Positions 1 to 64,000 of a stretch of 64,000 nucleotides of DNA are shown one piece after another. Source of the stretch: Stentor roeselii (taxonomy: Eukaryota; Ciliophora; Heterotrichea; Heterotrichida; Stentoridae). The notes below the pieces were generated by a model, which did no database searches, was not told the origin of the DNA, and saw nothing but the letters and a program-made list of their open reading frames with translations. Location of the stretch: positions 28,482-92,481 of the forward strand of contig RSEH01000191.1 of assembly GCA_006503475.1 (NCBI GenBank), in the 5' to 3' direction. Every line of letters begins with the position of its first letter. Position 1 is the first letter of the stretch. Made by a program: the position numbers and the translations under genes.

Positions 1-2636
1 CTGAGAAAAAATTGAAGAGTAATGAAGATCACTCGAAAAACAAAATCACTAATTTAAATAGGGAAAATGCGATACTTACTCAGAAACTTGAATTCGCTGA
101 TCAGTCACTTGAAGAGTATAAAAATCAGCTGGATGAGGTGAAGAAACAGCATATGAGCATGCTTTCATCACTTCATGGAAGTTCTGGATTATCTAATGAT
201 GATCTTGAGACTCAGCTTTCGAAAGTCAAGGCTCAATATGGGGATCAGATCAAGTCTTTAGAGTTGCAACTGGATACTCAAAGACGTGACTTAGGCAAAC
301 AACTTGAAGTTCTAACCCTAAGAAACACTGAACTCGAAATGGAATTAAAGGTTCAAGTCTCAGACTGGGAAAACAAAGCCTCATCACTTTCCACCTCTCT
401 CAACGAGACCACTGAAGAACGAAACAAGCTGAAAGACTCACTTTCCGAACTAAAATCAAAACTTGAAACTGCAACTCAAGAGACAGAAGCACGTCTACGT
501 AAAAAGATTTCAATGCTAGAAAAGGAAATCGAGGATATCAAAACAAAACACGCAGAAGAGGTTCAAAGTTCGAATGAAAGGTCAGAAACGAGTTACTCAC
601 AGCTTAAGGAATATTATGAAGCAGAAAAAAAGAGACTTGAAGCCCGTGTTCAGGATGATAAAGAAAGAGCTGAAAAAAAGTATAATTTGATGGTAGAAGA
701 ATATGAAGACCGTCTCAAAGCTGAACTAGACAACTACGAAGACGAACTTGCAGGCAAAGAAGATGAGTTAAGAGAAATGGATGCTTATTATAATGAAGAA
801 ATAAACTCCTTGAGGCATAAGGCTGGACTTGACATGCAAAAAATCGAATCACTTGAAAAATATCTAAAAGATAACAAGGAACAAATAGAAAACATGCAAA
901 AAGCTCATGCCTTGGCCCTTGAACAGAATCAGGAAAGGATGAACACTGAAAGAGTCTCACTTGTTGAAAAAATTGAAAAACTTGCGAATGAAATCGCGGC
1001 AAAAGAACGCGAAATGGCTTCAATTGTTTATAAAAAAGAACAACTTGAAACTCAACTTGCTCATCGTGATGCAGAACTTGATGATATCAAAACTCAGTAT
1101 GAAAGGGAAAAGGTTAGCTTGCAGGAAAGACTGGAAAATCTTAAAAGTCAGTTTAATACTATCTCTGATGAACTCATGCAAAAAAAGAATGACTCGAAAC
1201 GGGAAATGGCTCTTGCTCAACAAGAAATTGAATTCAAAAATAGGAAAATTGCTGATTTGGAAAGAAGTTTACATGATTCTGAAGATAAATATAATGAAGC
1301 CCTTAAATCATTACGCGATGAATCAGGTCAAGAATTATCTGCCACAATAGAAAAACTGACTCTAGACAAAGAAAGCCTTGAGCAGAAACTCGAACAGAAA
1401 AAGAAAAGCTTAAAAGAAATGGCAACTTCCAGCATCAAACAAATCGGCGCTCTTGAGAAGGAAAAAGCGATTTATGTTGAAAAATACTCTAATCTAGAGA
1501 GCAAGTATTATGAAACTGAAGAGCGACTCAAAAATGAAATAGAAAATTTGAATAACTTGCTGAAAGAGAAGAAAGAAGCTGAAAGTAGTGACAAGATGTC
1601 TGTTCATCTTGAAAATGAAAGGCTTAAAACTCTTCTACAAGAAATGGAAAAAGAAATGTCTGAACGAGGAGCCGCTAGTGAACGAGAACGAATGCTGTGG
1701 GAAAATAAACATGGATTCCTTACCCAACAGAGAGATGCTGCCAAGGCCGATTTGGCAGAAGCCCATAAAAAGTTCGATGCAACTCTAGAGCAAATCCAAA
1801 AAAAGAGTGCAATCGACAAAGAAAAGCTAGAATCATCCACAAACACTCTAATCGCCTCAATCGAGACCCGATACACGAACCAAATAAAAGACGCTCAAGA
1901 GAACTACACTTCCCAGATATCCACTCTAAACAGCAAAACAAAATCCCTCGAAAAAGAACTAAGAAGTGCAAAAGAAGAACTAGAACTCGAAAGACGAGGC
2001 CGAAGCGCAAATTCCGGAAGTCTCGAAAAAAAGCTTCTTGAGCTTCAAGACTCAGAATCTCGACTTCAATCAGAAGTCGAGCAGTTAAAAAAGGAAAAAG
2101 AAAAGAAAATCGAAGAGATTTCTGAAAGTTTCAACTACGAAAAAGACCAACTGAAAAACAAAATTTCCGATTTAGAAAAACGTGCAAAAGAAGCAGAGCA
2201 CCAAAGAGGCATCATGTTCATCGACCATGAAAAGGACAGGGCAAAGTGGAACATGGAAAGAGATCATCTCATTGCTCAGAAAAATGAAGCTTTGGAGAAC
2301 TTGGAAAGAGTCGAGAAAAAAAAGGAAACTTTGTTGAGGGAATGTGAAAAATTAAAGGCTGAAAGGGGAAAGAATAGAAATGCTGCTGGAGCTTTTGTTA
2401 GGAAACCGGAAGGGAATACTCAGCTTTATAAACAGGGAATTGGAAATCTTTTTGCTGGAGCTGGAGTTAGCTTTGAAGAGTTTTCTAGGGAAAAGAATCA
2501 GGAAGAAGGAGTACCTTCGCCGAAGTCGAGGGATGAAGAAATTGCTAGTCCGAAAAATGCGAGGAGGGGATATACACCTTTGACTTTTAAGGATAGGAAG
2601 AGAAGTGGAGTGGGAAGTGAGAAGAGTGATAGTTAG
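1..2636 (+). CDS. Long coiled-coil protein, 5'-truncated by the window edge
   Basis: The frame is open from base 3 with no stop before it, so the true start lies upstream; the first in-window TTG is not a start. About 877 residues are visible and end at TAG. Nearly all of it is uninterrupted heptad-type coiled coil rich in E, K, L and Q, with no globular domain. Only the last 90 or so residues change character: a Gly/Phe patch (LFAGAGVSFEEF) and a basic Ser/Pro tail with SPK sites (VPSPKSRDEE, IASPKNARRG) that could be proline-directed phosphorylation sites. Such proteins are usually cytoskeletal, centrosomal or tethering scaffolds, but nothing here selects one role. Coiled-coil similarity to SMC or myosin tails would be compositional only. 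The gene faces the convergent metallopeptidase-like gene across a 1.4-kb gap. Confidence 0.85.
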   Translation, partial: EKKLKSNEDHSKNKITNLNRENAILTQKLEFADQSLEEYKNQLDEVKKQHMSMLSSLHGSSGLSNDDLETQLSKVKAQYGDQIKSLELQLDTQRRDLGKQLEVLTLRNTELEMELKVQVSDWENKASSLSTSLNETTEERNKLKDSLSELKSKLETATQETEARLRKKISMLEKEIEDIKTKHAEEVQSSNERSETSYSQLKEYYEAEKKRLEARVQDDKERAEKKYNLMVEEYEDRLKAELDNYEDELAGKEDELREMDAYYNEEINSLRHKAGLDMQKIESLEKYLKDNKEQIENMQKAHALALEQNQERMNTERVSLVEKIEKLANEIAAKEREMASIVYKKEQLETQLAHRDAELDDIKTQYEREKVSLQERLENLKSQFNTISDELMQKKNDSKREMALAQQEIEFKNRKIADLERSLHDSEDKYNEALKSLRDESGQELSATIEKLTLDKESLEQKLEQKKKSLKEMATSSIKQIGALEKEKAIYVEKYSNLESKYYETEERLKNEIENLNNLLKEKKEAESSDKMSVHLENERLKTLLQEMEKEMSERGAASERERMLWENKHGFLTQQRDAAKADLAEAHKKFDATLEQIQKKSAIDKEKLESSTNTLIASIETRYTNQIKDAQENYTSQISTLNSKTKSLEKELRSAKEELELERRGRSANSGSLEKKLLELQDSESRLQSEVEQLKKEKEKKIEEISESFNYEKDQLKNKISDLEKRAKEAEHQRGIMFIDHEKDRAKWNMERDHLIAQKNEALENLERVEKKKETLLRECEKLKAERGKNRNAAGAFVRKPEGNTQLYKQGIGNLFAGAGVSFEEFSREKNQEEGVPSPKSRDEEIASPKNARRGYTPLTFKDRKRSGVGSEKSDS

Positions 2637-4003
2637 ATTACTAGGTAGTAATGAGTATTTATTTTAAGAGAATTTAAGAAGGTTTAATAAAGCCTCACCA
2701 TAAAAAACCTGCTTGGATTGCAGACCAAGCTTGAAGGAGAGCATAATTATTTTGAATGAATTTGACAGGCTGATGCATTGATGAAGACAACAGAAATCGT
2801 TTCTACTTTTTTCATCTTTCTCTTGTTTTTGGTATTTCTCCAAGTTTGAAGTCCACTGAAAACTGAAGTTTTGCTGATAAGTATTCCTGCTAAAGAATAG
2901 ATTGACAGATCTGACACTTCTCACTTCATTTTTTAAGTTTTTCCAATCGGTTTCGAATTATGGTGTTTAACCCGCACTGAAGACAGTTGAGTTTAATTTA
3001 TTTATAGTTGAAATCATCAAAGTCTTGTTCAGTGATTATCAAGGGGTGCAGGACTTGTGAGTTAACACTGTTGTAAATCCAGTTTATTCACTAGAATTCG
3101 GTGATTAGCATAACTTTATCTGACACTTCCGAAATCTTGAAACGATGGAAAAGTCTTGATAGTTCGAAATCACTAAAATAAATCTACTTTATTTCTGACT
3201 TTTCTATGAGTAGCTGAAAACTTTTTTTTTTCGAGTCTTACAATGGCACTTCTGACTTGCAGTCCACTAGGCTTTAACACAACTTTCAGCTCTTGGTAAT
3301 GCTCATCATTGATTTATTGACTGGTCAGATGGAAGATCACTGTTTAGAACTTATGCTTCTTGATAAAATCATCTGGTGTTGAAGTTTTTTTGCCCTAGAT
3401 GCTGGATGAAGTGCTTTTAAGATGAGGAACTTGAAAATTAATCTTTTACGCCTCTTTCTGTGGTTTGAAAGTCGGTTAACACCTTTTGTGAGAAATTCCG
3501 CTTAAATTAAGATTTTCGATGCACTGGTCTTGAGATTTTCTGGCATTTTAAGAAATCTTAAATTTTTTCTTTGCTGACTTCCTAAAGTTCTTTTATAGAC
3601 TTTTCCATTTCTTGGGATTAGGTTTTAAATAATAGAAAAATAGCTGCTCATGAAGTATTTGAGCCTTTTTAAGTAGTTTTCTGATGAACTTCTCATGTTA
3701 TCATGAATGAATTTTTTTTAGATGAACTATTTGTTTGAATATCCACCTTTTTGTTGTCGAAAAACTTTATCCGAAGTGCCCACTTTGGTATTTGGCAAGA
3801 TAGCCCAGCTTAAAGTGGTAGAATTTCAATCCTTTTATATAATCAAAGACTATCTCAATGTTTATCAAATTTTCACTCTAGATTATTTCTTTAATTTTAC
3901 TTAGCTATATTATGTAAAAATTTCAATTTACTAGTTTTATTGGGAACATAGATCTATTAAATGTAAAGCTTTTTAGAATCTATTAATTAACTATCTGATT
4001 ACT
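2637..4003. other. Intergenic stretch, no gene seen
   Basis: About 1.4 kb between two convergent genes. Short open frames exist (86 codons on minus at 2664-2924, 60 codons on plus at 3722-3904), but they have no recognisable domain and read like chance frames. No convincing tRNA was found. A tRNA box-A-like string near 3810 has no box B at the right distance. The + strand is G/T-rich over most of this stretch. Confidence 0.6.
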
Positions 4004-5395: not shown

Positions 5396-5890
5396 TTATA
5401 TTCAAAATGGAAGACATATTATTTACTTATAGATTCTAGAAATTATTTAATTAGGATAAGGAAACCTGTTGCCGATTGATTCTGATTTAATTTAAATTCT
5501 GAACCTCCAGGTGAACTTATCGATAAACCTCTTGGAACTTAATTGAACGGAAATAGGTTCTGTCCTCTTGGATATTCAAAAATGCAAACCAATCCAACGT
5601 AGCATTACGGTAAAGCTTTTTTACAGTAATTCTGATAGTTGAAGTATTAATATACGGAAATGGTCAATTTAGAATATAAAATTAGGAAATTAATTCCTAT
5701 TGAAATTCAGATAAAGAAATCCTTATTAGTGTTTGAGTTAAGGAATTGTTGTTGATAGTAGGTTTGTCTTTAAGCAATTCTTGACTAGTGACCGGGGACC
5801 TACTTCCTTGTTTTATTCCTTTTCTTACAAACAATCAACCCATGTAGTCCTGGTAGCCCTTGAGACCCTTCAGTCTCTTTTTTTACTATA
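4004..5890 (-). repeat. Inverted duplication, copy A (metallopeptidase-like gene plus 5' flank)
   Basis: The reverse complement of this block aligns with 23660-25120. Shared landmarks read off copy A in gene direction: GAAGGGTCTCAAG near 5870, GGTCCCCGGTCACTAGT near 5800, GGATTTCTTTATCTGAA near 5720, AATAATATGTCTTCCAT just upstream of the start, and then the coding sequence. Copy B has the matching strings at about 23680, 23770, 23845 and 24115. The outer edge near 5890 was placed by eye. Similarity covers promoter and gene, so this is a DNA-level segmental duplication and not a retrocopy. Confidence 0.8.
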
Positions 5891-7371
5891 TCTTATAAGC
5901 TGCTATTCAACTAAATAAAAAATCATATCACTTTTAGCACCCAAAGGTAAAAGTACTCTGATAATTATAAAAAACATCCAAATTCAACTAACAATAAACT
6001 AACCGATGTGAGCATTCGAAATCTCATCCACTCTCAATATAAATATGACCTCTCTTTCAGTTTGACTAAATCACACCAGAGATTACTTTAAAGAAAACCT
6101 TCTGGCTAAGAAAGATTCATTTTTCATTGAAACCTGCACATGATACAACTATTTCATATTAATTTCCTCAACCAATAATTGAAAGCAGGTGCCACAAGAA
6201 AGATATCATTATTTAATATTAGTGAAATCACGTGTTCTCGATACTGGCACCAGATATCGTGGTATATTCAAGTGAAAGACTTAAAAATATGCCAATTACA
6301 AAAGCGTACTAAAAGTTGAAAGAAAGCTACAATAAATAAATTCATCAAAAGTATTTAGTAAAATTGAGGCCAAACCTTGCATCTTGAAGCTTTAGTAAAA
6401 TTCAGCTGGATGATAAGTCAAGTATTTTCGATTATTCATAGGCATTCACAACTTAAGGGCTAGGAATAAACACTACTAGCTTAATGACTACCTAGATCTC
6501 ATTTTACAATCTTTATTCCAATATAAAAAACTCAAATAAATTCAAAAACTCAATTAGTCTTCCAAAACCAGCACTAATACTAAATGAATAAGAAACTTCC
6601 CTAAAACTTAATAACTGAATTCCTCTTTACTAACCTAAACTCAAATTAATACTTCAAAAACTCTCAAAATTCCATAATTACAAAAATTTTCACAGTCTAC
6701 TCTAAAAAACTCGTATAATTTATTCAAAATCAACTCAAAATTTTTATCCAGACCCTTCATTTTCATTCTTGAATTGGAACTTTTGAAATCCAAGGAAGCT
6801 TGAAATCATCTTCAGCACTGAACCTCATCAGGGTTTTAATCAAAGCATTTCAAAAAAAGCACAAAGGTCACTATTCTGAACAAGTCTACTAAAATTAGGT
6901 TGTCCATATAAATTATTCATGCCACGCGAGTCAGGTTTAAATATGGCTTCTCCATTCTAAAGGAAATTCTTGAGTTCTGGCCGCTTTTTAGATTATTTTA
7001 ATCGGAAAAAGTTGATGATGTGCATGATTTAGCCCAGTTGGTTGATTTTACTGTGCCAAGTGAAGAGGGTTGTTCGTTGGGAAGTTTGAAAATAAGGCAG
7101 ACGAAGGATCAGATGTCGATTTTGTTGCAGTACCCGCAGCCAAAGGTAAAAAAAGAGATCTGTAGTACAGACTTTGAAGATAAGTGAAAGGCGGTATTTC
7201 TATGTTACTGAACAGAAGTCCATAAGCTTGATCCACATATTCTTCACATTTTTCAGAGTTGACTACAATTCTTTTAATGTAATATCGTAATTAGAAAATT
7301 AGCCAAAGTTTAAAATATTTAAATCTATCCCTGAATTTCATAAAGCATTAATGGTCAATTTTACTTTATAA
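5396..7371. other. Intergenic stretch; 5' flank of the duplication, then no clear gene
   Basis: Bases 5396 to about 5890 are the 5' flank of the duplicated metallopeptidase-like gene. From about 5900 to 6780 the + strand is A/C-rich and I see no coding frame. At 7002-7187 there is a 61-codon frame open on the plus strand with no ATG before its middle (contains DFTVPSEEGCSLGSLKI, ends at TGA); it could be a relic of a decayed gene. An antisense 62-codon frame overlaps it. I see no tRNA and no terminal inverted repeats. Confidence 0.5.
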
Positions 7372-8652
7372 ATGAAATTATTATTGACTGCAATCATTCT
7401 CTCCCTAGTACTAGCAGAAGACCCAGACCCAAGCAAAGATGAATCAAAACATCCATTCGGACCAAGTCAAATCATAGGAAGTTTTTTAGTCTTAATCGCA
7501 AGCGGCTTAGCCAACGCTGGAGGAATCGGTGGAGGTCCAATAATGGTGATAATTCTCATGACCTTATTCCACCTAAAAGCCCACGAGTCCGTTCCAATCA
7601 GTCAACTAATAATCTTCGGTGGTTCTCTAATAGCGATTTTCATAAAAGTCTTCCTTCGTCACCCAATAAAAATCAGGCCTCTGATCGACTTCGACATATC
7701 TTTATTACTTTGCAGTCCAATTCTTCTCGGTACCAGTTTAGGAGTGATGATAAATTTAGTGATCCCTCAATGGTTGATCCTTCTCCTATTAACAATCCTT
7801 CTCTTTTACATTTCAACTGATACCTGGCGAACAGGTCTAAAGATCTTCCGAAAAGAAAACACGACTAAAACAAGTGTTCGAATGTACGACCCCGACAGTA
7901 GCCTTTTCGGGTCTTTTACAGGCCTAGACCCAGAACTCGAGAGCATTTACAACACAGAAGCCAAGACAGCACCTCCAAAGACTTTAATAGTTTTAAGTGT
8001 TCTGTTCTTGTTCGTGGGGTTCAGTTCTTTTGTAAGAGGAAGTTCTTCTGTTAAGTCAATATTTTCAATTGAAATGTGTTCAGTGATTTATTGGCTTTAT
8101 ACTGTTTTTTCTTTCTTGGTGCTTATTGTCACTGCTGGTGTCTCTGCGATTATGATGAAGAAAAAACATTTAAAAAAAGAAGTACTTGGATATGACTTTG
8201 ATACTATGGATCTTGTATGGAGTAAAAAAATCATCGCGACTGTTATTTTTGCAGGGTTTCTTGCAGGACTCGCTGCTGGCATGGTCGGCGTCGGAGGAGG
8301 AATCGTCATGAATCCGGTCATGTTGAGACTTGGAATGCGACCTGAAGTTTCTACGGCTACTTCAAGTTTTATGGTGCTTTTTACATCGACTATCTCTATG
8401 CTTCAATATGCAATTGCTGGAAAATTAGACCCTTTTTATGGGTTTATTACTTTAGCGTTTTCACTTGTTGGGTCTACGCTTGGAATACTTGTGTTGAAGA
8501 AAATTATTGAGAAGTATAAAAGGGCTAGTATTATTGTTATGCTTCTTGCTTTGATTTTAAGTGCTTGTGCTATTGTTATACCGACTTGGGGGATTTATAA
8601 TTATACGAGGAGTCATCAGAGTGATGGATTTCGTGATTATTGTAGAGGGTGA
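7372..8652 (+). CDS. TauE/SafE-family membrane transporter
   Basis: 426 residues. A hydrophobic N-terminus (1-15, ending LVLA before an acidic stretch) looks like a signal peptide or signal anchor. Two half-repeats each carry the glycine motif of the TauE/SafE family (PF01925): ANAGGIGGGP at 48-56 and GMVGVGGGI at 303-311, each at the start of a bundle of transmembrane helices. A charged loop (about 155-200) and a further hydrophobic segment (204-222) lie between the halves. The family includes bacterial sulfite/organosulfonate exporters and plant and protist homologues; the substrate here is unknown. ATG follows TTTATAA. The stop is TGA, one sign that UGA is not reassigned. Synonymous base use switches sharply at about 7980. 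The gene converges on the DHHC gene, with 94 bases between. Confidence 0.9.
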   Translation: MKLLLTAIILSLVLAEDPDPSKDESKHPFGPSQIIGSFLVLIASGLANAGGIGGGPIMVIILMTLFHLKAHESVPISQLIIFGGSLIAIFIKVFLRHPIKIRPLIDFDISLLLCSPILLGTSLGVMINLVIPQWLILLLLTILLFYISTDTWRTGLKIFRKENTTKTSVRMYDPDSSLFGSFTGLDPELESIYNTEAKTAPPKTLIVLSVLFLFVGFSSFVRGSSSVKSIFSIEMCSVIYWLYTVFSFLVLIVTAGVSAIMMKKKHLKKEVLGYDFDTMDLVWSKKIIATVIFAGFLAGLAAGMVGVGGGIVMNPVMLRLGMRPEVSTATSSFMVLFTSTISMLQYAIAGKLDPFYGFITLAFSLVGSTLGILVLKKIIEKYKRASIIVMLLALILSACAIVIPTWGIYNYTRSHQSDGFRDYCRG

Positions 8653-8746: not shown

Positions 8747-9496
8747 TTATTTGGCTTCTATACTTAATAGATTTGGAGCTCTTACTAGTTCAAAACTTTC
8801 GGATCTTGAATTATCCACATAAGGTTCATAATACTTTTTAATATCCTCCTCAACAGCAACCCTATTTTTCTTCCTTCTCTCTACAATAAACTCATAAGTT
8901 GTTTTCTTCTCAAAGCTCAAATAAACATGAAAAGCAATTAAAATTCCATTACTAACAACACAAAAAGCCGATACAACAATAGAAAGAGCCATAAAAGTAA
9001 AAATCATTTCCTTTCTAAACAATTTCCTAACATCATCCGAGTTCTCATTAACCCAAACAACAACAACAACAGAACTTCCCAGCTGAAAAAGCATAAAAAG
9101 CTCTAAAAACACAATAGTCATAACAAAATACTTATAATTTTCCGACCCAATACAATTATTAACCCAAATGCAATGATGATCAAAGTTCGAAACACATCGA
9201 TTACACTGTCCACAATGTTTCGATGAAATTTCAACGTTTTTCTTACAAATTGTGCAATATTTTAAGTTTGGATAAGTTCTTGAAACTCCACTGGGGTCGA
9301 TATAAGCACAGAAAAAGGCTGAAGAAACAGAACCAATAGCTAAAAGTGAATAAATCACTGCAGAAATAATTTGACTTTTCGATTTGAGTATTGGAACTAT
9401 TACCACAAAGTAGTTTGTTATCAAAAACAATCCGATAAAGATTGCAAGTTTCTGTTCACATGGACTTGGCTGAGTAAACCCATTTATTTTCCGCAT
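8747..9496 (-). CDS. DHHC-type protein S-acyltransferase (palmitoyltransferase)
   Basis: 249 residues, four predicted transmembrane helices (about 16-36, 42-64, 124-148, 165-190). The Cys-rich domain lies in the cytosolic loop between helices 2 and 3: CTICK at 81-85, then HCGQCNRCVSNFDHHCIWVNNCIG, with the catalytic DHHC at 106-109. A TTxE motif (TTYE, 199-202) follows helix 4, as is typical for the family. These enzymes transfer palmitate to cysteines of membrane-associated proteins at Golgi, endoplasmic reticulum or plasma membrane. The protein is short and has no ankyrin repeats, so substrate choice cannot be guessed. The start ATG is preceded by TTATA. Confidence 0.93.
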   Translation of the reverse strand: MRKINGFTQPSPCEQKLAIFIGLFLITNYFVVIVPILKSKSQIISAVIYSLLAIGSVSSAFFCAYIDPSGVSRTYPNLKYCTICKKNVEISSKHCGQCNRCVSNFDHHCIWVNNCIGSENYKYFVMTIVFLELFMLFQLGSSVVVVVWVNENSDDVRKLFRKEMIFTFMALSIVVSAFCVVSNGILIAFHVYLSFEKKTTYEFIVERRKKNRVAVEEDIKKYYEPYVDNSRSESFELVRAPNLLSIEAK

Positions 9497-9670
9497 TATA
9501 ACTATGAAAAAAACCGCTCTTTTCTCATTCTAGTAAAGAATTCTTCGATTAACAGAAAAGAATTTTATTTTTATATTTGAAGGTAAAAAAGTTAGATGTT
9601 TAAATTTGAATCAGTTATTTATTTATCTAGTTTGACGAAAAATTTCATATAGTTTAAAGTCGCCATAAAT

Positions 9671-12094
9671 ATGGATAAAGATTCTCTTGAAGACGGCAGC
9701 AAACCTGGAAATCGAAGTAGTAGCTCATCTAGTCAAAACTCTGAAGATGAATCGATGAGACAGTTTCTGGAATTTCAAAGGAAATTGAGTCTTGGAAGTC
9801 AAAAAGCTGAGAGTCCTAAACTTGTTGAAGAGTCGAAATCTAAAGTTAAGTCAAGATCTTCGAGTTCGGAAAAAGACCCTTTGGAAGAGCTGAAAGCTTT
9901 TCAGAATAAGGCTGGCTTATCACCTGAAAAAGAAGTATCTTCTAGAAAATCCTCCAAGTCTTCCAAGAGTTCAAAATCCAGTTCAAGTTCCGATGAAAGT
10001 CAAGGAAAAAGCAGCGAAAGTTCAAAAAAGAAAAAAAAACCTGCATCAATCCAAGAATTTCACGAAAAAAATACACTTGAAACTCCGAAGGAAAATGTTG
10101 TTTATAGAGACTCACTCGATGAAACCAGTCTTCCAGGTCTTGCAGCAGAAATAAAAGCGAGTTTAGAAGAAGAATTTCATCAAAAGGCTGACAGAAAGTC
10201 TTCTTCAAGCAGCTCTGAGAATGAAAAAAAAAAAGACTTTTTTCATGCTAATGACAGGAAGTCTTCTGAAAGTAGTTCAGAAAAAGTGAAAGAAAATTTA
10301 CCTGAAAAATTTTCAAGTCATAAAAAAAAACATCTCAAAGACGACTCTAGCTCTTCTTCTCATGAAAGAAAAAATTCAAAAGGCTCCAGTTCTTCATCTG
10401 TTGATGATTTGAAAGAAACTCATGAAGACTTAGATATAAAAAATCAGAATGAAGAATATGAAGAGGATGAGCAGGACTTAAATATTAATGAAAAAATACA
10501 AGAAAACGAAAAATTGTTGGATGAAAGAAATATTCAGGATAATGAAATAGTTTCTAAGTCAAGATCAAATTCTTCTAGCAGTGAAAGCTCTTTACATGAA
10601 GACTTAAAAGCTCCTGAAGAACCTGAAATCTTAAGAAAAAGTTCTTCGTCTTCAGAAAGTTCTCAAAAAGAAAAAGAAGTTGAAAATCCTGAAAATAAAG
10701 AACAACTTGACTCAAAACCTTCTCAGGTATTTGAAAGTCCTGAAATTCTCATCGAAACTGATCCAAAACTAGTGGAAACTCCAGATATCTTAAAAGACGA
10801 GAGCTCTTCATCAGATAGCTCTGAAAATAGTTCATTAAAAGATTATCAAAACATCTCAGAACCTGATAAAAAAACTGGAGAAAATCTTGAAAAAGGAAAA
10901 ATTTCTAGATCAAGTTCTGAAGAAGTAATTGAGTCAAATGAAAAAGAGGATTCTCCACAACGGAAAAGCGAAAAAGACTCAAGTTCAAGTTCAGATGAAG
11001 AAAAGGACCCAGTGCCTGAGAAACGTGAAGAAGAAAATGAAGAGATTGAAAATCCTCCACAAAAAGTAAGCGATAAAGACTCTAGCTCAAGTTCAAATGA
11101 AGAAAAGGACCCAGTGCCTGAGAAACGTGAAGAAGAAAATGAAGAGATTGAAAATCCTCCACAAAAAGTAAGCGATAAAGACTCTAGCTCAAGTTCAAAT
11201 GAAGAAAAGGACCCAGTGCCTGAGAAACGTGAAGAAGAAAATGAAGAGATTGAAAATCCTCCACAAAAAGTAAGCGATAAAGACTCAAGCTCGAGTTCAG
11301 ATGAAGAAAATAACCCAGTTTTAGAACCTCCTGTAGAATCTTTTGAAATATCTTCGAAAGCTGTTGAAAGGTCTGAGTCTTCATCATCTGAGTCTCTGGG
11401 AAAAGATCAAATAAGCAAGTCTCCTTCATCTGATGATAAAAAAATTGAAGAAAAACATGACATAAAACTTTTTCCTAATGAAGTTATTGAATCTGATACT
11501 ATTCCAAATTCAACTCCATTAGAAAATTTACCTTCAAAACTAGGAGAAGTTGAAGGAAGATCTAGTTCTTCATCGTCAGAATCTCAAGAAATTAAACACG
11601 ATAAAAAAATCCAGGAAAACTTTGAAAAGCATTTCGAAAAAACTCAAAATGATGAGTTCGAGAAAAAAGAGAAATCTGCAAAGTTTCCTGAAATTCATAA
11701 AAAAGTGACAGAAGATGTGAAACCAATCACATCTCCAAAGGAAGATACCCTAGACCCTCTATCATCTCATAAAAGAAAATCGTCATCTTCATCAAGTGAT
11801 GAAAAGAAAATCACTTCAAAAAAGTCTTCATCTTCTTCTAGTTCATCAGACAAGCACAAAAAAGAGGAGACGAAAGAAGTTCCAGTAAAAACTGTAGAAA
11901 CCTTTGAAGGTCCTCCAATCAACAAAGAAATTATTCATGAACCTTCAATTTCAGAGATGTCGTCGTCGAAATCAACACCAGTGACCAGCAAAGATCAATA
12001 TGAACAGAGAAGAGCCATGAATACCTTTGATACATCCAAGAAAACTGAAGACAGACACGGAACAAGTTCTTGTGGGAAATGCATTATTATTTAA
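9671..12094 (+). CDS. Ser/Glu/Lys-rich low-complexity protein with tandem repeats and a C-terminal CaaX box
   Basis: 807 residues, almost wholly disordered: Ser runs (SSSSSS, SSSESS) alternate with E/K/D stretches, many of them potential casein-kinase-2-type sites (S followed by D/E). The centre holds three nearly identical 34-residue units (separate entry). No globular domain is visible. The last residues are SSCGKCIII: Cys 804 followed by three Ile is a CaaX prenylation box, and Ile at the last position would favour geranylgeranylation by the usual rule. I infer a membrane-tethered, highly acidic, phosphorylatable scaffold or brush. A highly repetitive Ser-rich protein can pick up chance motifs, but the Cys is in a protein otherwise nearly free of Cys. 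The DHHC gene upstream is divergent, with 174 bases between. Confidence 0.85.
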   Translation: MDKDSLEDGSKPGNRSSSSSSQNSEDESMRQFLEFQRKLSLGSQKAESPKLVEESKSKVKSRSSSSEKDPLEELKAFQNKAGLSPEKEVSSRKSSKSSKSSKSSSSSDESQGKSSESSKKKKKPASIQEFHEKNTLETPKENVVYRDSLDETSLPGLAAEIKASLEEEFHQKADRKSSSSSSENEKKKDFFHANDRKSSESSSEKVKENLPEKFSSHKKKHLKDDSSSSSHERKNSKGSSSSSVDDLKETHEDLDIKNQNEEYEEDEQDLNINEKIQENEKLLDERNIQDNEIVSKSRSNSSSSESSLHEDLKAPEEPEILRKSSSSSESSQKEKEVENPENKEQLDSKPSQVFESPEILIETDPKLVETPDILKDESSSSDSSENSSLKDYQNISEPDKKTGENLEKGKISRSSSEEVIESNEKEDSPQRKSEKDSSSSSDEEKDPVPEKREEENEEIENPPQKVSDKDSSSSSNEEKDPVPEKREEENEEIENPPQKVSDKDSSSSSNEEKDPVPEKREEENEEIENPPQKVSDKDSSSSSDEENNPVLEPPVESFEISSKAVERSESSSSESLGKDQISKSPSSDDKKIEEKHDIKLFPNEVIESDTIPNSTPLENLPSKLGEVEGRSSSSSSESQEIKHDKKIQENFEKHFEKTQNDEFEKKEKSAKFPEIHKKVTEDVKPITSPKEDTLDPLSSHKRKSSSSSSDEKKITSKKSSSSSSSSDKHKKEETKEVPVKTVETFEGPPINKEIIHEPSISEMSSSKSTPVTSKDQYEQRRAMNTFDTSKKTEDRHGTSSCGKCIII
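10976..11281 (+). repeat. Three tandem 102-bp units (34 codons) plus a partial fourth
   Basis: Units begin at 10976, 11078 and 11180, each starting GACTC and encoding a Ser run followed by EEKDPVPEKREEENEEIENP and PQKVSDKD. Units 2 and 3 are almost identical in DNA, and unit 1 differs at a few bases (AGCGAAAAA before it in place of AGCGATAAA). A fourth unit starts at 11282 and diverges after about 30 bases. Identity at silent sites indicates recent expansion or ongoing homogenisation. The period is a multiple of three, so copy number can change without a frameshift. Confidence 0.95.
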
Positions 12095-21351: not shown

Positions 21352-21903
21352 GAGGATGATTTATGATTTGGGGCATTAGGTGGTTGGTGAGTTTTTTTGG
21401 ATTTATTTTGATTAATTATGGATAATTATAGATTGAATGAAGGATGAGGTAATTTTCTAGTCTAATTTTGGGAAAAAGAGATTATGCATCATATATTAGT
21501 ATCTAAAAAGCTATGTTTTTATGAATATTGATATGCTTTTGATTATTAGCGAATTACTAAATGAATATTTCAAAATAGAGAATAGATTTTAATTACGATA
21601 AATTCAAATATTTACCTAGATTTCAATCAGATTTATTTTATAGTCATCTAATCATCAGGAATGCACTAAACTATAGCATATCTATTGAATTTCTATTTTA
21701 AATTAAATTTTCCACTATTTTTTTGGAAGAGATAAAAAATTCTGTAGTTTCAAAAACTTACATTATACCTGATAAGTCTTCATTGATTCAGTTCAAAGTT
21801 ATGAAAAATGGGTAAAAATTGCTAAAATCTCCAGTTTCCCCTCCTTCGAAATTGCCGGTAAATCCCTGAAACATTTCCCAAATCTGCCATTTTTATAAAC
21901 ATA
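21352..21903. other. Intergenic stretch, no gene seen
   Basis: About 550 AT-rich bases between two same-strand genes. No useful frame, no tRNA and no repeat was noticed. A TATAAA lies 11 bases upstream of the next ATG. Confidence 0.6.
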
Positions 21904-33768: not shown

Positions 33769-34139
33769 TTAGGTTTCGTTTATAAGGATAATTATGAACA
33801 AAAGTTATAATGAAATGATAATATAAACAATTTTTTAAGTCAATCTTAAATAATTTAAATGATGCAAATAGAATAACTTTATCAAAATCATAAAAACCGA
33901 TTAAGTTGACTAAGTAGTTAACTAGCTTGCTCAACATATAGAATTTCAATTTTTTTAATACTATCATACAAGTATAACCAAAAAAATCTTATCATATTCT
34001 CAGACTATCAGAAGTTTCGATTCATAAAAATACCTTCAAATCAAATCTTAAACTTAATGAAATTCATTTCCAAAATATAATTATTTTCCTTGTCTATAAG
34101 TAAGCCATTATAAAATAAATCTAATTTTAACTACTATGC
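33769..34139. other. Intergenic stretch, no gene seen
   Basis: About 370 AT-rich bases between convergent genes. A 72-codon minus-strand frame (33749-33967) overlaps the GH5 stop and looks like chance. Confidence 0.6.
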
Positions 34140-52706: not shown

Positions 52707-52983
52707 ATTTAAATAACCGATTGATTTGAGCCATAATTTGAGGAAGATTTTGATGGGGTTTCGATTGATTTGAACTTGGGGATTTAGAGAATAGAAGATA
52801 ATGGACTGTTTTTATGTTTGGAGTTTGAAGTGAGGGAAGTAAAGAATTGAATAGTTTATAATAGTTTAGTGATTTTAGAGATTTTTTGAAAATTGGTTAT
52901 TGAAGACTGAGAGGTGAATGATTTTTAACAGGTAATAATTATTGAAGCTGTGAAGTTAGTAGGATCTTTAGTTAGTCAGTGAT

Positions 52984-53637
52984 CTAATCATATCTTCTTG
53001 GCTTTGGAGCTACTCCAATCACTTTTATATAATCTTTTAACAGCTTTTCGCCACGGGCTCTGTCTGCAGGGTCAGGGCTCATTAAGTACTGAGTCAGCAT
53101 TTTTCTTAGGTAGCTGCTGACGACTAGACTAAAGGGTAAAATGTCTGAGTCTTTCACTGCTTTCATTCTGTTTAGTTCTCTTGATAAGTCTATCTTTGGA
53201 GCGTTTCCTTCACCGATTTTTAGAAGTTTTAAAAATTTTTCGAAGTCAAGGTCGCCAGTTTTTTCACTGTCTACAGAATCTACTAATTTTTCTACTTCGA
53301 GTCGATTTTTAACGAGACCCAAGGCCAATAACGGTTCATTCAAATGATCAGCACGAATAGTTTTCCTTCCTTTTTCAGGAATACTCGAAAAATACTTATG
53401 CAGATCTTTCCTCATATTATCCTGAAAGTCAATATAATGTCTTTTCCCTTGTTTTTTAAGCCAAGTCCTCTGCTGACTATTGAGATACTTTTCACTTGAG
53501 TTCTTGAGCAATCTAACCCTAAGTTCTTTTTGCCGTCTGACTTCAGAAGTAACTATTTTCAAGTCATCAGACTTGACAGTATAAAACTCATTTTTTTGAT
53601 ACTCTTCCATATTAACTATAAAAGGTATCTTTCTCAT
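52984..53637 (-). CDS. EF-hand-like protein
   Basis: 217 residues from the ATG at 53637 (MRKIPFIVNMEEYQKNEF). An in-frame ATG at 53724 would add 29 Ser-rich residues but would overlap the divergent frame at 53645 by 80 bases, so the shorter form is preferred. The middle has an EF-hand pair pattern: helix ADHLNEPLLALGLVKNRLEV, then VDSEKTGDLDFEKFLKLL with Asp, Gly and Asp at loop positions 1, 6 and 9. The last loop position is Lys, not Glu, so calcium binding is doubtful. The C-terminal part (DILPFSLVVSSYLRKMLTQY) is helical. Similar ciliary EF-hand proteins exist, but no orthologue is named. 277 bases separate it from HYDIN. Confidence 0.78.
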   Translation of the reverse strand: MRKIPFIVNMEEYQKNEFYTVKSDDLKIVTSEVRRQKELRVRLLKNSSEKYLNSQQRTWLKKQGKRHYIDFQDNMRKDLHKYFSSIPEKGRKTIRADHLNEPLLALGLVKNRLEVEKLVDSVDSEKTGDLDFEKFLKLLKIGEGNAPKIDLSRELNRMKAVKDSDILPFSLVVSSYLRKMLTQYLMSPDPADRARGEKLLKDYIKVIGVAPKPRRYD

Positions 53638-56084: not shown

Positions 56085-56717
56085 ATGACGACTAACAGTT
56101 CGAATTCAAGACTTAATCATCGCAGGAAGTCTGAAGAAAGTTTGGTTACTCCCGGACCTGGATGCTATTATGTGCCGAGGGACCTGTGTAAAAGATCTGT
56201 TTCTTTCACTAGAGCTTCTCGATCTAGTGATAAGTGCAGGCTTAGCCCTGGACCTGGAAGTTATAATATACCTTCGGAAATTGGCAAAGGACCTAGAGTT
56301 GTGTTTTCTTCTGCTAGGACGGCTTCTGAAATCACTTATGTTCCTGGCCCTTCTGATTATTCTCCCTACTACGGCTTTTCATCAATCAAGTACACCTTCC
56401 CCAAATACAACAATCAAAAAGGTCCTCAAATAACTCCAGGTCCAGCAGACTACAACACCATAATAAAAGCCCACGCTCCTAAAGTGACAATAGGAAAAGC
56501 TAAAAGATTATTATTAGACATCGGAAACCTAGAAACCGATGTTAAAAGCCGAAACCTTTCAAGAAAAAGTTCAAATTGTTTTCAAACCCAGATGAGTTCA
56601 TTCGCATCAGGGCCAAAAGAAGGTCTTAGAAGAGAAAGTTTCACAAAAAAGCACGGAAGAGAAAACTGTGGACGTTCAGGTTCAGTGAAAAAAAACAAGA
56701 AAAACTGTAATTTTTAA
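56085..56717 (+). CDS. SHIPPO (STPGR) repeat protein, ODF3-like
   Basis: 210 residues. Four PGP-x-x-Y type repeats are visible: PGPGCY (23-28), PGPGSY (55-60), PGPSDY (87-92) and PGPADY (118-123), with spacing of about 32 residues. This is the SHIPPO/STPGR signature of the ODF3 family, proteins found along ciliary and flagellar microtubules and in basal-body structures. The tail is basic (KNKKNCNF). A structural role in cilia or the microtubule-rich cortex is likely by family. It starts 22 bases after the kinase stop and ends 18 bases before the WBP4-like gene, all on one strand. Confidence 0.88.
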   Translation: MTTNSSNSRLNHRRKSEESLVTPGPGCYYVPRDLCKRSVSFTRASRSSDKCRLSPGPGSYNIPSEIGKGPRVVFSSARTASEITYVPGPSDYSPYYGFSSIKYTFPKYNNQKGPQITPGPADYNTIIKAHAPKVTIGKAKRLLLDIGNLETDVKSRNLSRKSSNCFQTQMSSFASGPKEGLRRESFTKKHGRENCGRSGSVKKNKKNCNF

Positions 56718-56735: not shown

Positions 56736-57515
56736 ATGAAAAACTCTTCAGATAAATCGAAAAGTTTTTGCCAGATCTGCAAACTTTCAGTAGACTCGAA
56801 CTATATGAATAAACATTTGACTTCGGAAAGACATCTAAGGGCTAAAGCTTCGAAGATGTACTACTCGTTAAGGTCTTCTAAAAATCCTAGCAAGAAACAG
56901 AAAATTGATGAAGATGATGGGGAAAAAAGACATGTCAGTCATTCTAGGGTTCAGGGTGTTTGGACTGTTGTTAAAGAATCTGGAAGGGTTTTGTATCGAA
57001 ATAAACTTAGTGGAAAAACTCAGGTTAATAAACCTTTTGGATTAAAGGAGGAAGACTTGGAAGAAGAAAGTTTGAATAATTTTGTTGTTGAGGATTATGA
57101 TAAAGTATTACCTGGAGATGGACATGAGTATGAAGAACCCGAACTTGGTAATTGGCAAGAGGTGAAAAATGATAATCTTTACTGGTTTGGAGGAGAAGAT
57201 CGCGAAAACGACGATCTCCATTCAGAAAAAAGCCACTCAGAATCTTCAGAAAATTCATCAAAATCCATTCAAAGTCCATCTGAACTTCTAAAATCAACAC
57301 ATTCCTGGAAGCCAATCCAAGCCACAACCTCATTACCCTTAAACCCAAGTCAATTATCAATCCACATAACAGAGCAACTAAAGCAAGAACTCGATGAAAA
57401 CCCATTACCAGAAACCTTAACCTCAAAGCCAGAATACTTAAAAATTCCCGAATCTTTATCCTCCTTCCAAAAGCGTTCAATAAAAGGAAAGTCCTTTTCC
57501 AACCTAAATAAATAA
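56736..57515 (+). CDS. WBP4/FBP21-like splicing factor (U1-type zinc finger plus WW-like domain)
   Basis: 259 residues. N-terminal zinc finger of the matrin/U1 type: [20 protein letters not shown] then ERHLRAK (C-x2-C...H-x5-H). About 74-100 is WW-like: [20 protein letters not shown] followed by KTQVNKP, with one clear Trp and the closing Pro; a second WW is not seen. This order (matrin finger, then WW) is that of WBP4/FBP21, a spliceosomal B-complex protein; human WBP4 has two WW domains, so this is a shorter form or a relative. The C-terminal half is Ser/Glu-rich. The terminal TAA shares its last A with the ATG of the Prp16 gene. Confidence 0.7.
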
Positions 57516-60304
57516 TGAAGTCCCGGTCTCGAAGCCCAAGATCAAAGCGTCAAAGTTCAACTCCTTTATTTTTCCGAGGAAAGGGCTCCATAAAGAAGTC
57601 ATCAGAGACTCCAACAACACTTTCTCCGAACCCTCACAGTTTAGCGAATTCAGAATACAAAGCCTTAGAATGGGAGTCACGTCAAATCATTGACCTTGAA
57701 TGGTACGATTCAAATGAAGGACCAGGCCTGATAAAAGACGAAGACGATTTCGCCTTTCGTGAACCAGATTCAAAAGAAAAGAAAAAAACTTTAGGCACTT
57801 TGAAGAAACTTGAAAGAATGCAAGATAATGATAAATGGGAAATAAATCGCATGATTTCATCTGGAACTATAAAGGTACATAACTCAGGTTTCCTTGAAAA
57901 GGATGAAGAAGATCGAGTGATTCTCATGGTTCACAACATAAAACCTCCTTTTTTAGACGGGTCTATCGTTTTCACCACCCAGCTTGAAACTATTCAAGTT
58001 GTAAAAGCTCCTAATTCAGACATCGCTGTTCTTGCCAGAAAAGGTTCAGCAGTAGTTCGTGTTGTAAGAGAAAAGAACGAAAAAAGCAAGATGCGTGACA
58101 AGTTCTGGGATATTTCAGGGTCTACTTTAGGACAAATCCTCGGAATGAAAAGAGAAGAAAAACAAGAAGATGAAGAATCAGTTTCTGACTACAGAGCCGA
58201 CTCTCAATATGCGAAGAACATGACAGGTTTCGAAGCAGTGAGCGACTTTGCTCGTAGTAAAACAGTGAAAGAACAAAGAGAGTACCTTCCGATTTTCTCT
58301 GTAAGGGAGAGCCTTGTGAATGTAGTGAGGGAAAATAAAGTGGTTATCATTGTAGGAGAAACAGGATCAGGAAAGACTACTCAGTTGACACAGTACTTAT
58401 TTGAAGAAGGCTATTCAAGCTTCGGCACTATTGGATGCACGCAGCCCAGACGTGTCGCTGCTGTGTCTGTCGCCAAAAGGGTCAGTGAAGAAATGAGCTG
58501 TAAACTTGGCGAGAAAGTCGGATACGCCATTCGCTTTGAAGACTGCACCTCGCCTTCTACTGTCATCAAGTACATGACTGACGGGGTACTTCTCCGAGAG
58601 TCGCTGAATGATGAAGGTCTTGATATCTACTCGGCCATTATCATGGACGAGGCTCATGAAAGGTCACTTCACACAGATGTCCTTTTTGGAATCCTTAAAA
58701 AAGTAGTGCAGAAAAGAAGGGACTTGAGACTTATCATCACCTCAGCTACTATGAATGCTGAGAAATTTTCTGATTTCTTCGGAGGTGCACCCATCTTCAC
58801 TATTCCTGGAAGGACTTTTCCTGTTGATGTTGTTTTCAGCAAGACCCCTGTTGAGGACTATGTCGACTACGCAGTTAAGAAGGCACTTGAGATTCATCTT
58901 CAACAACCACCTGGAGATATTCTCATCTTTATGACGGGACAAGAAGATATCATGGCAACTTGTGTACTGCTCAATGAAAGAATCGCAGAAATGGGAGAAA
59001 ATATTCCAAAGATCAGGGTGTTGCCTATTTATTCTCAATTACCTTCGGAGAACCAGGCAAGGATCTTTCAAAAAAGTGACCTTCGCAAATGTGTGGTCGC
59101 CACGAATATCGCGGAAACTTCTTTAACTGTTGATGGAATTCGATATGTTATTGATACTGGGTTTTGCAAGTTGAAAGTTTTTAATCCTAGGATTGGAATG
59201 GATGCTTTGCAGGTCACTCCTATTTCACAGGCTAATGCCAATCAGAGGTCTGGAAGAGCTGGACGTACTGGACCTGGAACTTGTTATAGGCTTTATACTG
59301 ATACTATTTATAGAGAGGATTTATTGGAAAATAATATACCGGAAATTCAGAGGACTAATTTGGCCAACGTAGTACTTCTCCTAAAAAGCCTAAACGTTTC
59401 AAACCTTCTAGAATTTGAATTCATGGACCCTCCTCCGCAAGAAAACATTTTAAACTCAATGTACCAACTATGGATCCTCGGTGCATTAAACAACAACGGT
59501 GATCTAACAGATCTCGGTCGAAAAATGGTAGAATTTCCACTAGACCCTCCCTTATCAAAGATGTTACTAGAAGCTTCACGTTACAAGTGCAGTTCAGACA
59601 TGTTGACAATAGTTTCAATGTTAAGCGTTCCAAGTGTTTTTTACCGTCCAAAAGACCGAGAAGCCGAAGCCGACGCCTCCCGAGAGAAGTTTTTCGTGCC
59701 CGAGTCCGACCATCTGACACTTCTCAACGTTTACAACCAATGGAAAAACAACGGGTTCCGAGCGGACTGGGCAAGCAACAACTACATTCACGTCAAAGCT
59801 CTGAGAAAAGTTCGAGAAGTCCGTGCACAACTTGCAGATATTTTAAAATCCTTGAACATTTCAGAAGTCTCCTGTGGGGGCAACTGGGACAATGTAAGAA
59901 AAGTGATCGCTTCAGGGTACTTTCATAATTCAGCGAAAATGAAGTCTATTGGGGAATATGTTAACTTAAGGACTGGAATTCCTTGCGTTCTTCATCCTTC
60001 TAGTGCGCTTTTTAGCCTTGGATATGCCCCGGATTACATAGTTTACCATGAACTTACTATGACCACCAGGGAATACATGCAGTATGTCACTGCTGTCGAC
60101 CCTTATTGGCTCGCGGAACTAGGACCTATGTTCTTTAGTACTAAGGAAAACTTTCAGGAAAATGAAGCAAGGATCAAAACTGAACAAGCCAGCAGAATGC
60201 AGCAGGAACTCAATATTGTCAGGGAAAATATTGAAAAGAAAGAAAAAATTGAAAGTCGAGTTGGAAGTGTTGTCATGGCTGGAAGAACTCATTTTCCTAA
60301 ATGA
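57515..60304 (+). CDS. DHX38: Prp16/DHX38, spliceosomal DEAH-box RNA helicase
   Basis: 929 residues. An SR-like head ([15 protein letters not shown]) precedes the conserved [12 protein letters not shown] element, the DRDWY element of Prp16 proteins. No other Met lies before that element, which fixes the start. Helicase motifs: GETGSGKT (281-288), [12 protein letters not shown] (378-381), [34 protein letters not shown]. Winged-helix, ratchet and OB-type C-terminal domains follow ([39 protein letters not shown]). Prp16 drives the remodelling after the first splicing step, so it acts on the 15-nt introns of this genome. The ATG overlaps the upstream stop as TAATG. Confidence 0.96.
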
Positions 60305-63641: not shown

Positions 63642-64000
63642 ATTTTAGATAAGTTATGCATCTTTTTATATATTTAGAGTTACTGAAGTTCTTCATATTT
63701 TGAAAGGTGAATTATTTTAGAAGAGTGAATAAAAGTTGATTTGATTCGGTTTTAAAATATTAAACATTAAGAATCACAGGGAAAATTTTTTATTTTAGAT
63801 TTTTTTATGGTTGGGAAGATTATTTAATGATATTTAGAATTCTAAAGAAAATTTGATAAAATCCTAATATTTTCATCATAACCCTCAATAAATCTATCAC
63901 ATTACATAACAGAATCACTTAAACCCTAAAAACTCTCTCTACAACCTCTAAAATAGCACTTAATTATTCAATCCAACATTCCTCTTTTTCATCTTCTCAG
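63642..64000. other. 3' flank, no gene seen before the window end
   Basis: About 360 bases of AT-rich DNA. The first half is T/G-leaning and the last 150 bases are A/C-rich on the + strand. No coding frame, RNA gene or repeat could be supported. Confidence 0.6.

Follow-up and report, generated by a model that had tools for sequence, protein, structure and literature searches.

The top strand of a 64,000-nucleotide stretch of Stentor roeselii DNA (the window, to which all our composition results refer) switches between G/T-rich and A/C-rich composition in the form of a polar sawtooth: it drops sharply from G/T-rich to A/C-rich at point-like foci and rises slowly back, and what a preliminary description had taken for alternating blocks are mostly halves of these asymmetric units. 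We tentatively favor, at somewhat less than even chances, the reading of this sawtooth as the footprint of germline double-strand breaks that recur at fixed places, with C>T and A>G changes arising on their resected 3' strands.

The pattern is clearest in a minus-strand open frame of 4,492 codons with no internal stops (39333..52811), which carries Pfam HYDIN/ASH domains and whose protein is matched by the HYDIN chains of solved structures in the PDB, in agreement with the earlier view that the protein stays conserved through the silent-site changes. We scored amino-acid-corrected keto content (G/T versus A/C) at third codon positions, with shuffles of synonymous codons as the null. Against 300 such shuffles, keto heterogeneity in HYDIN is 5-8 times as large at 40-80 codons (variance ratios of 5.1 and 7.8 for 40- and 80-codon sums; z 33 and 38), while the purine axis is near flat (1.24 and 1.35, p ~0.07) and the GC axis lies in between (2.3 and 2.8). 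The keto autocorrelation is positive up to ~240 bp, falls to a minimum of -0.067 at ~510 bp and has a weak maximum of 0.017 near 930 bp, with weak swings thereafter. After leaving out four ORFs shorter than 200 codons from the 29 modelled, we tested the other 25 with 200 shuffles each: the described switching of silent sites within exons recurs at p <= 0.01 in 21 of them, and those at 4004-5395, 9653-12094, 18884-19690 and 62057-62824 lack significant keto heterogeneity. No phage or E. coli control ORF (0 of 73) exceeds 100 shuffles, as opposed to 19 of 24 window ORFs. The keto pattern in the window is confirmed as real; chance, codon-usage drift or protein composition, for which we found no support in these data, is ruled out for the window by the z values against codon shuffles and by the controls, and retains next to no probability. 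A rumen-protist HYDIN ortholog is only weakly heterogeneous whichever axis is taken (keto ratio 1.76, purine 2.31), and its keto autocorrelation is at most 0.019.

The 17 edges previously placed by eye in HYDIN fit the data well. The 18 blocks that they delimit alternate in mean sign throughout, the first (39333-40830) being a composite with a mean of -0.05, and their between-block sum of squares is 380, compared with 15 ± 5 when codons are shuffled (200 shuffles) and a maximum of 318 when the edge set is rotated. Fifteen of the 17 edges have a counterpart in the optimal segmentation no more than 62 bp away, the exceptions being 46485 (429 bp away) and 48485 (142 bp away); the median distance is 24 bp, versus 137 bp by chance. 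The optimal segmentation itself has 27 segments against the 18 by-eye blocks.

The asymmetry of the units is seen in several ways. At one threshold there are 24 strong drops and 5 strong rises, and the widest filter gives 30 drops versus 18 rises at Z>3; this surplus depends on the threshold, such that with half the sites and a low threshold rises equal or outnumber drops (42 drops and 65 rises; 38 drops and 40 rises). The largest drop-minus-rise gap in 60 simulations is 11. The skewness of the derivative is -0.59, compared to -0.015 ± 0.099 in 200 simulations of symmetric blocks, none of which is as low. By penalized gain, a forward sawtooth (1283) surpasses a reversed one (976), and a model with a fixed 600-bp reach (1320) surpasses both the self-similar ramp (1283) and a square wave (1096). 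Free piecewise-constant blocks and free linear ramps are about equal under light penalties (1436 vs 1421 and 1240 vs 1241), but the blocks fare worse under heavier ones (1064 vs 1086; BIC 314 vs 433). Accordingly, of the original picture of alternating 0.3-1.4 kb blocks the switching of composition stands, whereas the free-block form gives way to a sawtooth with point foci, a reach of ~600 bp and units spanning ~0.24 to 2.5 kb.

Each sharp drop is a point focus, G/T-rich on its left and A/C-rich on its right, which we give as an interval of two log-likelihood units. Within HYDIN, the sharp-drop fit places two-sided foci at 40372..40398, 41167..41184, 47938..47961 and 50725..50736, and further two-sided ones lie at 43837..43851 (gain 25.4), 51607..51624 (gain 26.9) and 49036..49044 (gain 32.1), the last being among the best localized; the right side is weaker at 42727..42756 (z -1.9), and 45676..45753 is poorly localized (right side z -1.7). 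Elsewhere, the same fit yields two-sided foci at 31296..31358, 36474..36500, 53300..53338, 56361..56369, 57171..57209 and 59360..59368, to which are added a two-sided focus at 26737..26763 (gain 26.7), one at 8803..8813 (gain 36.5; left +0.44, right -0.63) and a poorly localized one at 17897..17978 (left z 2.4, right z -4.4). Three foci at ORF edges are one-sided, being nearly flat where the DNA is noncoding: a weak one at an ORF start (7320..7410, at 7368; gain 4.8; noncoding left 0.00, right -0.57), one ~120 bp beyond an ORF end (21457..21487, at 21473; gain 8.8; left +0.51, noncoding right +0.04) and one near an ORF end (28342..28374, at 28353; gain 10.1; left +0.75, mostly noncoding right -0.04). 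A further focus at an ORF end is weak on its noncoding side (33777..33799; gain 10.0; left +0.41, right -0.14). Three of the 24 sharp drops fall outside ORFs (a fraction of 0.12).

On either side, the strand with its 3' end toward the focus is depleted in C and A, an effect fading over ~600 bp. Across 18 foci, C/(C+T) on this strand is 0.099, 0.150, 0.199, 0.289, 0.308 and 0.353 with increasing distance, against 0.583, 0.565, 0.543, 0.497, 0.391 and 0.352 on the other strand, the contrast in the nearest bins being inflated because the foci were selected on the same signal; the two strands converge at 700-1000 bp. Two disjoint sets of sites share the polarity (C/T sites -0.50 ± 0.08; A/G sites -0.25 ± 0.08), and drops detected on one set reappear in the other. 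The logit slopes of the two transition axes are 2.42 ± 0.17 and 2.18 ± 0.16, with GC content flat. Thus, the earlier suggestion of strand-biased C>T on exposed single strands is right as to strand-biased transitions but not as to C>T alone, since A>G accompanies it. Zero blur fits the drops best (an sd of 45 is worse by 21 and one of 100 by 31 log-likelihood units), and, of the simulations, those in which the true blur was ~20 bp most resemble them. Neighbor-base odds ratios are 1.8-4.3 over all neighbors in noncoding DNA and 0.99-18 in coding DNA, where they are uneven (0.99 for a 5' G) and confounded with codon structure; APOBEC-like cytosine-deaminase editing has a strong neighbor-base preference. 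We found no motif shared by the focus sequences in the window, and TA, which would be expected at the borders of excised germline inserts, is not significantly enriched there: of the eight narrow focus intervals, seven contain it, versus 5.1 expected (p 0.15).

As had been described, the pattern takes no account of where genes lie or which way they run: it crosses gene borders, and its polarity is the same in minus-strand HYDIN (derivative skew -1.48 ± 0.46) and in plus-strand genes (-0.85 ± 0.12), other minus-strand genes being uninformative by themselves (-0.46 ± 1.26). Transcription-associated gene asymmetry, whose sign should follow the gene strand, was rejected on account of this strand-independent polarity and of the many reversals of keto sign inside the HYDIN frame. 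Both noncoding blocks named earlier hold, with sites taken as independent: 5900-6780 has a keto score of -0.19 (z -5.4) and 22800-23500 one of +0.14 (z +4.0), the corresponding segments being 5821..6930 (A/C-rich, mean -0.16) and 22891..23640 (G/T-rich, mean +0.12). Over the six noncoding segments of at least 600 bp, the 300-bp keto variance is 2.96 times that of Markov simulations (reached by 0 of 200). One 2.9-kb stretch, 9196..12075, is without skew (mean 0.00), and its ORF, 9653-12094, is not significant. Silent-site amplitude exceeds that of noncoding DNA; both noncoding bases and codon positions 1 and 2 track the silent-site score (0 of 500 shifts as strong in either case), as mutation pressure would predict.

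The composition thus probably arises from mutation rather than selection. Under the favored reading, the inherited genome would be broken on both strands at each focus, rarely but recurrently and in the same place; 5'-to-3' resection would bare, on either side and for up to ~600 bp, the strand ending 3' at the break; and exposed cytosines and adenines would mutate (C>T, A>G), as expected of single-strand deamination or gap filling, the second strand being resynthesized only afterward. The top strand would become G/T-rich to the left of the focus and A/C-rich to its right, with the effect fading with distance, and adjacent foci would merge into the sawtooth. The composition suggests that strands are exposed by breakage followed by resection; the breakage presumably takes place in the germline nucleus, and the foci appear to stay put over evolutionary time. 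The ends of internal eliminated sequences (IESs) or of transposons are candidate cutting sites, since the density and intragenic position of the foci resemble those of Blepharisma IESs. However, the known programmed IES cuts are made in the somatic nucleus during its development. Because that DNA is not passed on, IES ends could serve as germline break sites only under an extra assumption.

Among the rivals, we regard as unlikely a germline-nucleus noncoding transcription (or another strand-opening machine) with many starts in both directions that stops at fixed barriers. Near a barrier only polymerases heading toward it would be present, such that the non-template strand directed at the barrier is exposed and mutates, the result being the same sawtooth with a reach of one transcript length. 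This predicts the observed polarity and fixed reach, accounts for the irrelevance of gene direction and accords with transcription-linked asymmetry adding G and T to the non-template strand; however, it needs barriers about every kilobase within exons, we found no barrier motif at the foci, and transcription usually shifts composition far less than is seen here. The fixed replication-fork switches proposed earlier survive as an improbable rival in the form of micro-replicons, in which replication starts at random between fixed fork barriers (or molecule ends) that recur at roughly kilobase intervals, a leading-strand G/T bias building up toward each barrier and dropping there. Leading strands are usually G/T-rich, and many units can be described as linear ramps between about -0.55 and +0.55; yet the self-similar ramp loses to the fixed-reach model by ~18 log-likelihood units, the flat stretch at 9196-12075 does not fit, and we know of no case of origins or termini every kilobase. 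Were the sharp points origins instead, their polarity would be opposite to that of human origin jumps. The nucleosome-scale effects also raised earlier do not match the 600-bp reach.

It is rather improbable that the lineage is effectively asexual, its somatic nucleus serving as germline and the foci being somatic breakage or telomere-addition sites with resected ends. The geometry would be identical to that of the breaks, 46,705 potential internal sites of telomere addition are reported for Blepharisma, and no mating has been observed in the cells from which the Stentor reference genome derives; on the other hand, 38,686 of those 46,705 sites rest on one read and are thus not sharply recurrent (PMC9942806), and nearly saturated silent sites would demand very long asexuality. 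Selection on codons, mRNA or chromatin structure could explain why silent sites exceed noncoding DNA in amplitude, but we deem it very unlikely, given blocks that enter noncoding DNA and cross gene borders, polarity independent of the coding strand, the accompanying shift of codon positions 1 and 2, and the weak heterogeneity of the rumen-protist ortholog.

If the break reading is true, one genome sequence would yield a fine map of recurrent germline breaks together with the resection length, and break repair would dominate the mutation spectrum of a ciliate. Less probable, and to us doubtful, is the broader proposition that silent sites record, to tens of bp, the places of recurrent germline breaks (perhaps of germline-only inserts) with break repair, not ordinary replication, as the main source of point mutation, in which case a germline break or insert map could be read from somatic sequence alone. 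Should another mechanism be at work, opposite strands would still be opened to the left and right of fixed points about every kilobase, independently of genes and strongly enough to set composition. Studies of codon usage, phylogeny and gene prediction in such genomes would need to allow for the sawtooth.

Sawtooths of G+T over A+C skew are also known from the human replication 'factory-roof' domains, in which sharp upward jumps at origins are followed by slow declines; these have the opposite polarity and are about a thousand times longer than the units here. Replication-origin skew domains were accordingly rejected, in view of the 24 strong drops against 5 strong rises and the worse fit of the reversed sawtooth (976 vs 1283). 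In tumors, same-strand runs of changes arise on exposed single strands, a likeness to the present case, but they are somatic and sporadic, whereas the pattern here is apparently inherited and fixed in place. Such strand-coordinated mutation clusters have been reported (PMC8850194). Ciliates also have DNA units whose ends mirror each other in strand composition, as a purine bias over ~50-130 bp at nanochromosome ends (spirotrichs, PMC1805493; Oxytricha, PMC3558436; Nyctotherus, PMC2633312) and as a 3' subtelomeric GC skew in Halteria (PMC7858049); those reports concern real chromosome ends, unlike the keto skew here, which extends ~600 bp to both sides of intragenic points. Subtelomeric bias was set aside as a candidate because the purine axis is near flat, the reach is ~600 bp and all but 3 of the 24 drops fall inside ORFs. 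In Blepharisma stoltei, 39,799 IESs are recorded for a somatic genome of 41 Mb, ~70% of them intragenic (PMC9942856), resembling our foci in being about one per kilobase and mostly within genes; they are insertions in the germline nucleus, around which the relevant passages of these reports mention no composition skew (PMC9942856, PMC9942806).

Human meiotic break hotspots show left-right strand-asymmetric mutation over a kilobase range (forward-strand C>N and A>N), attributed to single strands left by resection, with deamination and error-prone filling of the gaps (PMC7615360). The likeness is that the affected strand switches from one side of a point to the other, seen here in the composition around 18 foci rather than as observed mutations. 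Our foci, which are spaced ~1 kb apart, appear more sharply defined than is usual for meiotic hotspots. According to the sections of the human study bearing on this, the excess emerges by pooling tens of thousands of hotspots and the asymmetry is absent within 100 bp of the center (PMC7615360), whereas here base composition is altered so strongly that single foci can be read in one sequence, and the asymmetry is strongest within 100 bp (0.099 vs 0.583, at foci picked for sharp contrast).

The window is gene-dense when read with the standard code, and its largest frame, a stop-free stretch of 4,492 codons on the minus strand (39333-52811), is a HYDIN match by both Pfam and solved HYDIN chains. 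Silent sites were given a keto score, +1 for G or T and -1 for A or C at the third codon position, minus the mean of the respective amino acid. The preliminary description had called for a comparison with codon-shuffled sequences; against 300 synonymous-codon shuffles the HYDIN block-sum variance lies far above them, 5.1-fold at 40 codons (z 33) and 7.8-fold at 80 (z 38). T-A skew and G-C skew each carry this signal, GC content does so moderately and purine content hardly at all, and the autocorrelation crosses zero at ~300 bp, reaches its minimum at ~510 bp and shows a weak return at ~930 bp. Across the 29 ORFs modelled, 21 of the 25 tested were significant at p <= 0.01, the four under 200 codons having been left out of the shuffle test. 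Under the ORF caller used for controls, 19 of 24 window ORFs beat all shuffles with a length-weighted keto ratio (variance relative to shuffles) of 4.31, versus 0.94-1.02 in phage G, phage AR9 and E. coli K-12 (50 kb each), where none of 73 ORFs beat all 100 shuffles. Codon shuffles and phage and E. coli controls rule out chance and codon drift, and the silent-site signal in this single 64-kb window is real.

The 17 edges that the same description had drawn by eye in the HYDIN frame delimit 18 blocks whose mean sign alternates at every edge. The between-block sum of squares comes to 380, compared with 15 ± 5 in codon shuffles and at most 318 for the rotated edge set. For 15 of the 17 edges the optimal segmentation has an edge no more than 62 bp away; the other two lie farther off. 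Both noncoding blocks that it had proposed, A/C-rich at 5900-6780 and G/T-rich at 22800-23500, hold, and the six noncoding segments of at least 600 bp have a 300-bp keto variance 2.96 times that expected; the noncoding amplitude is lower (autocovariance at lags up to 20 bp of 0.018 versus 0.085 at silent sites). One 2.9-kb stretch is free of skew; it holds an ORF (9653-12094) with an internal tandem repeat of 102 bp in 3.5 copies with 96% matches (10966-11319).

HYDIN relatives were confirmed in none of the viral contigs searched and found in no plasmids, and the search of prokaryote genome contigs yielded one contaminant contig, in a sheep-rumen metagenome-assembled genome (MAG) labelled Elusimicrobia bacterium RGIG6696 (G001). 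Its eukaryotic contigs C10, C8, C58 and C89 (L021, L022, L023 and L024) encode a HYDIN of 4,862 codons together with three dynein heavy chains whose uninterrupted frames span 3,314-4,711 codons, and are probably from a rumen ciliate. In three of the contigs (14.5-15.7 kb) a single such frame takes up almost the whole length, which would fit gene-sized chromosomes. A myosin search in this assembly found nothing, with its control search equally silent. The keto ratios of these rumen-protist genes are 1.76 for HYDIN (z 7.1) and 1.72, 1.75 and 1.23 for the dyneins (z 6.8, 6.4 and 1.9). Their autocorrelations do not exceed 0.021 and lack a clear negative lobe, and their purine ratios are higher (1.85-2.31); in the same comparison the window HYDIN gives a keto ratio of 5.19 and an autocorrelation running from 0.112 to -0.062. 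A 559-codon kinase ORF from the same rumen source has a keto ratio of 2.44 and similar values on the other axes. HYDIN domain structure is an unlikely cause, given that the rumen-protist HYDIN and dyneins are weaker in heterogeneity on all axes. Thus, the HYDIN protein as such does not account for the strong pattern, and the rumen protist does not have it, although a weak form there is possible.

To characterize the bases involved, we scored the surroundings of each site from its neighbours only. At fourfold sites of plus-strand genes, from the most A/C-rich to the most G/T-rich surroundings, C falls from 0.27 to 0.06 as T rises from 0.24 to 0.56, and A drops from 0.41 to 0.19 while G goes from 0.08 to 0.20. 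Noncoding bases and the genes on the minus strand shift in the same direction. The response slopes of the C/T and A/G axes are about equal (2.42 and 2.18), GC content does not respond (-0.11 ± 0.11) and purines respond little (-0.71 ± 0.10); therefore, the change is mostly of the transition type, with C to T and A to G affecting one and the same strand. The proposal of strand-biased cytosine loss accordingly captures the C-to-T component, but leaves out the A-to-G component, which is about as responsive. No settled neighbour-base preference emerged. First and second codon positions and noncoding DNA track the silent-site score, with correlations of 0.031, 0.036 and 0.10 that none of 500 shifted controls reached, as would be expected of mutation pressure. 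Two tandem alpha-kinase genes (62057-63641) are identical at 128 of 238 aligned residues, 58 of those 128 codons differing, with silent skew blocks in the second copy that are absent from the first; as a clock the pair is too short and unpolarised.

The blocks do alternate as described, but not symmetrically: on the plus strand, transitions from G/T-rich to A/C-rich are sharp and the reverse gradual, with 24 drops versus 5 rises over one threshold, and 29 versus 12 and 30 versus 18 (Z>3) or 12 versus 2 and 17 versus 3 (Z>4) with other filters. The smoothed derivative has a skewness of -0.59, as against -0.015 ± 0.099 when a symmetric block process was simulated 200 times on these sites, with no simulation as low; this edge polarity rules out symmetric alternating blocks. 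In the control comparison the derivative skew was -0.75 ± 0.09 for the window, 0.06 ± 0.18 for phage G, -0.20 ± 0.12 for phage AR9 and -0.12 ± 0.16 for E. coli K-12; it was -0.21 ± 0.10 for the rumen-protist HYDIN and within about one error of zero for the dyneins. Polarity agrees between disjoint site sets and between plus-strand genes and the minus-strand HYDIN; the rest of the minus-strand genes, taken by themselves, tell nothing either way (-0.46 ± 1.26). When the threshold is lowered and half of the sites are used, rises match or outnumber drops (65 versus 42 and 40 versus 38), but the held-out sites change more steeply over drops than over rises. A piecewise-linear fit has 40 of 53 segments rising and 41 of 52 jumps negative; free constant blocks do about as well when penalties are light and fall behind when they are heavy. 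The best template, with 40 units, is a ramp that fades out within 600 bp to either side of a focus, as the point of a drop is called here; it scores 1320, followed by exponential (1303), self-similar ramp (1283), box (1252), square-wave (1096) and reversed-sawtooth (976) forms. Strict periodicity is unsupported, with model units spanning 240 to 2,475 bp.

We fitted 22 of the 24 strong drops, leaving out 279 and 63843 close to the window ends, and resolved their positions to 9-91 bp. Zero blur fits best; in simulations with true blurs of 0, 20, 45 and 80 bp (six each), 20 bp was most data-like, and two of six at 45 bp also chose zero. Skew is two-sided at 17 of the 22 foci (|z| >= 2 left and right); 7368, 21473 and 28353 are flat on one side, which is wholly or mostly noncoding, and 42736 and 45694 are weak on the right. 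At the foci near ORF edges (7368, 21473, 28353 and 33784) the coding side is strongly skewed and the noncoding side little or not at all, unlike at intragenic foci. The ORF at 32200-33768 carries glycoside hydrolase family 5 (cellulase) domains and is adjoined on the opposite strand by one without a Pfam match (34140-34712). Drops are mostly intragenic, 12% lying in noncoding DNA versus 22% of the window. Gene-end phasing amounts to a weak tendency only: drops lie a median of ~1 kb from ORF ends, and coding-strand keto, HYDIN excluded, is +0.08 to +0.15 over the final 450 bp and -0.11 to -0.13 at 630-900 bp (errors 0.05-0.09). A search for motifs at foci gave no clear motif, the best 5-mer, CCATA (10 of 24 versus 2.8 expected within 60 bp), being unconvincing given the many tests, and TA showed no significant excess.

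Over 18 foci, the C share of pyrimidines on the strand ending 3' at the focus rises from 0.10 (<100 bp) to 0.35 (700-1000 bp), and on the opposite strand it falls from 0.58 near the focus to 0.35 at 700-1000 bp; the nearest-bin values are inflated because the foci were selected on the same signal, being picked and described from the same data except in the split by site class. Resection of a double-strand break from 5' to 3' would leave single-stranded the strand whose 3' end lies at the focus. In human meiotic hotspots, forward-strand C and A and reverse-strand G and T are mutated within 2 kb; it is the forward strand that is exposed on the left side and the reverse strand on the right (PMC7615360). 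Because the focus geometry matches both the resected strand and this asymmetry, we tentatively favor breaks that recur at fixed positions of the inherited genome and are resected over up to ~600 bp, a reading that we hold plausible, if somewhat short of probable. A barrier to bidirectional germline transcription predicts a shape identical to that of the break model, and we consider it an unlikely cause of the sawtooth. Programmed cutting of germline inserts takes place in the somatic nucleus, so that any link between the putative break sites and such inserts is a lead only. The location of the foci nevertheless fits the known inserts of the heterotrich Blepharisma, which number 39,799 in 41 Mb, ~70% of them intragenic (PMC9942856).

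Among the matches listed, seen as titles and abstract openings and with the Stentor genome paper outside their coverage, no such pattern is described for Stentor or any ciliate, and novelty is unproven. Skew sawtooths are also known from replication origins, but those run with the reverse polarity and on a much larger scale than the one in the window. The subtelomeric bias of nanochromosomal ciliates differs in involving other bases and a much shorter range (PMC3558436, PMC1805493, PMC2633312, PMC7858049).
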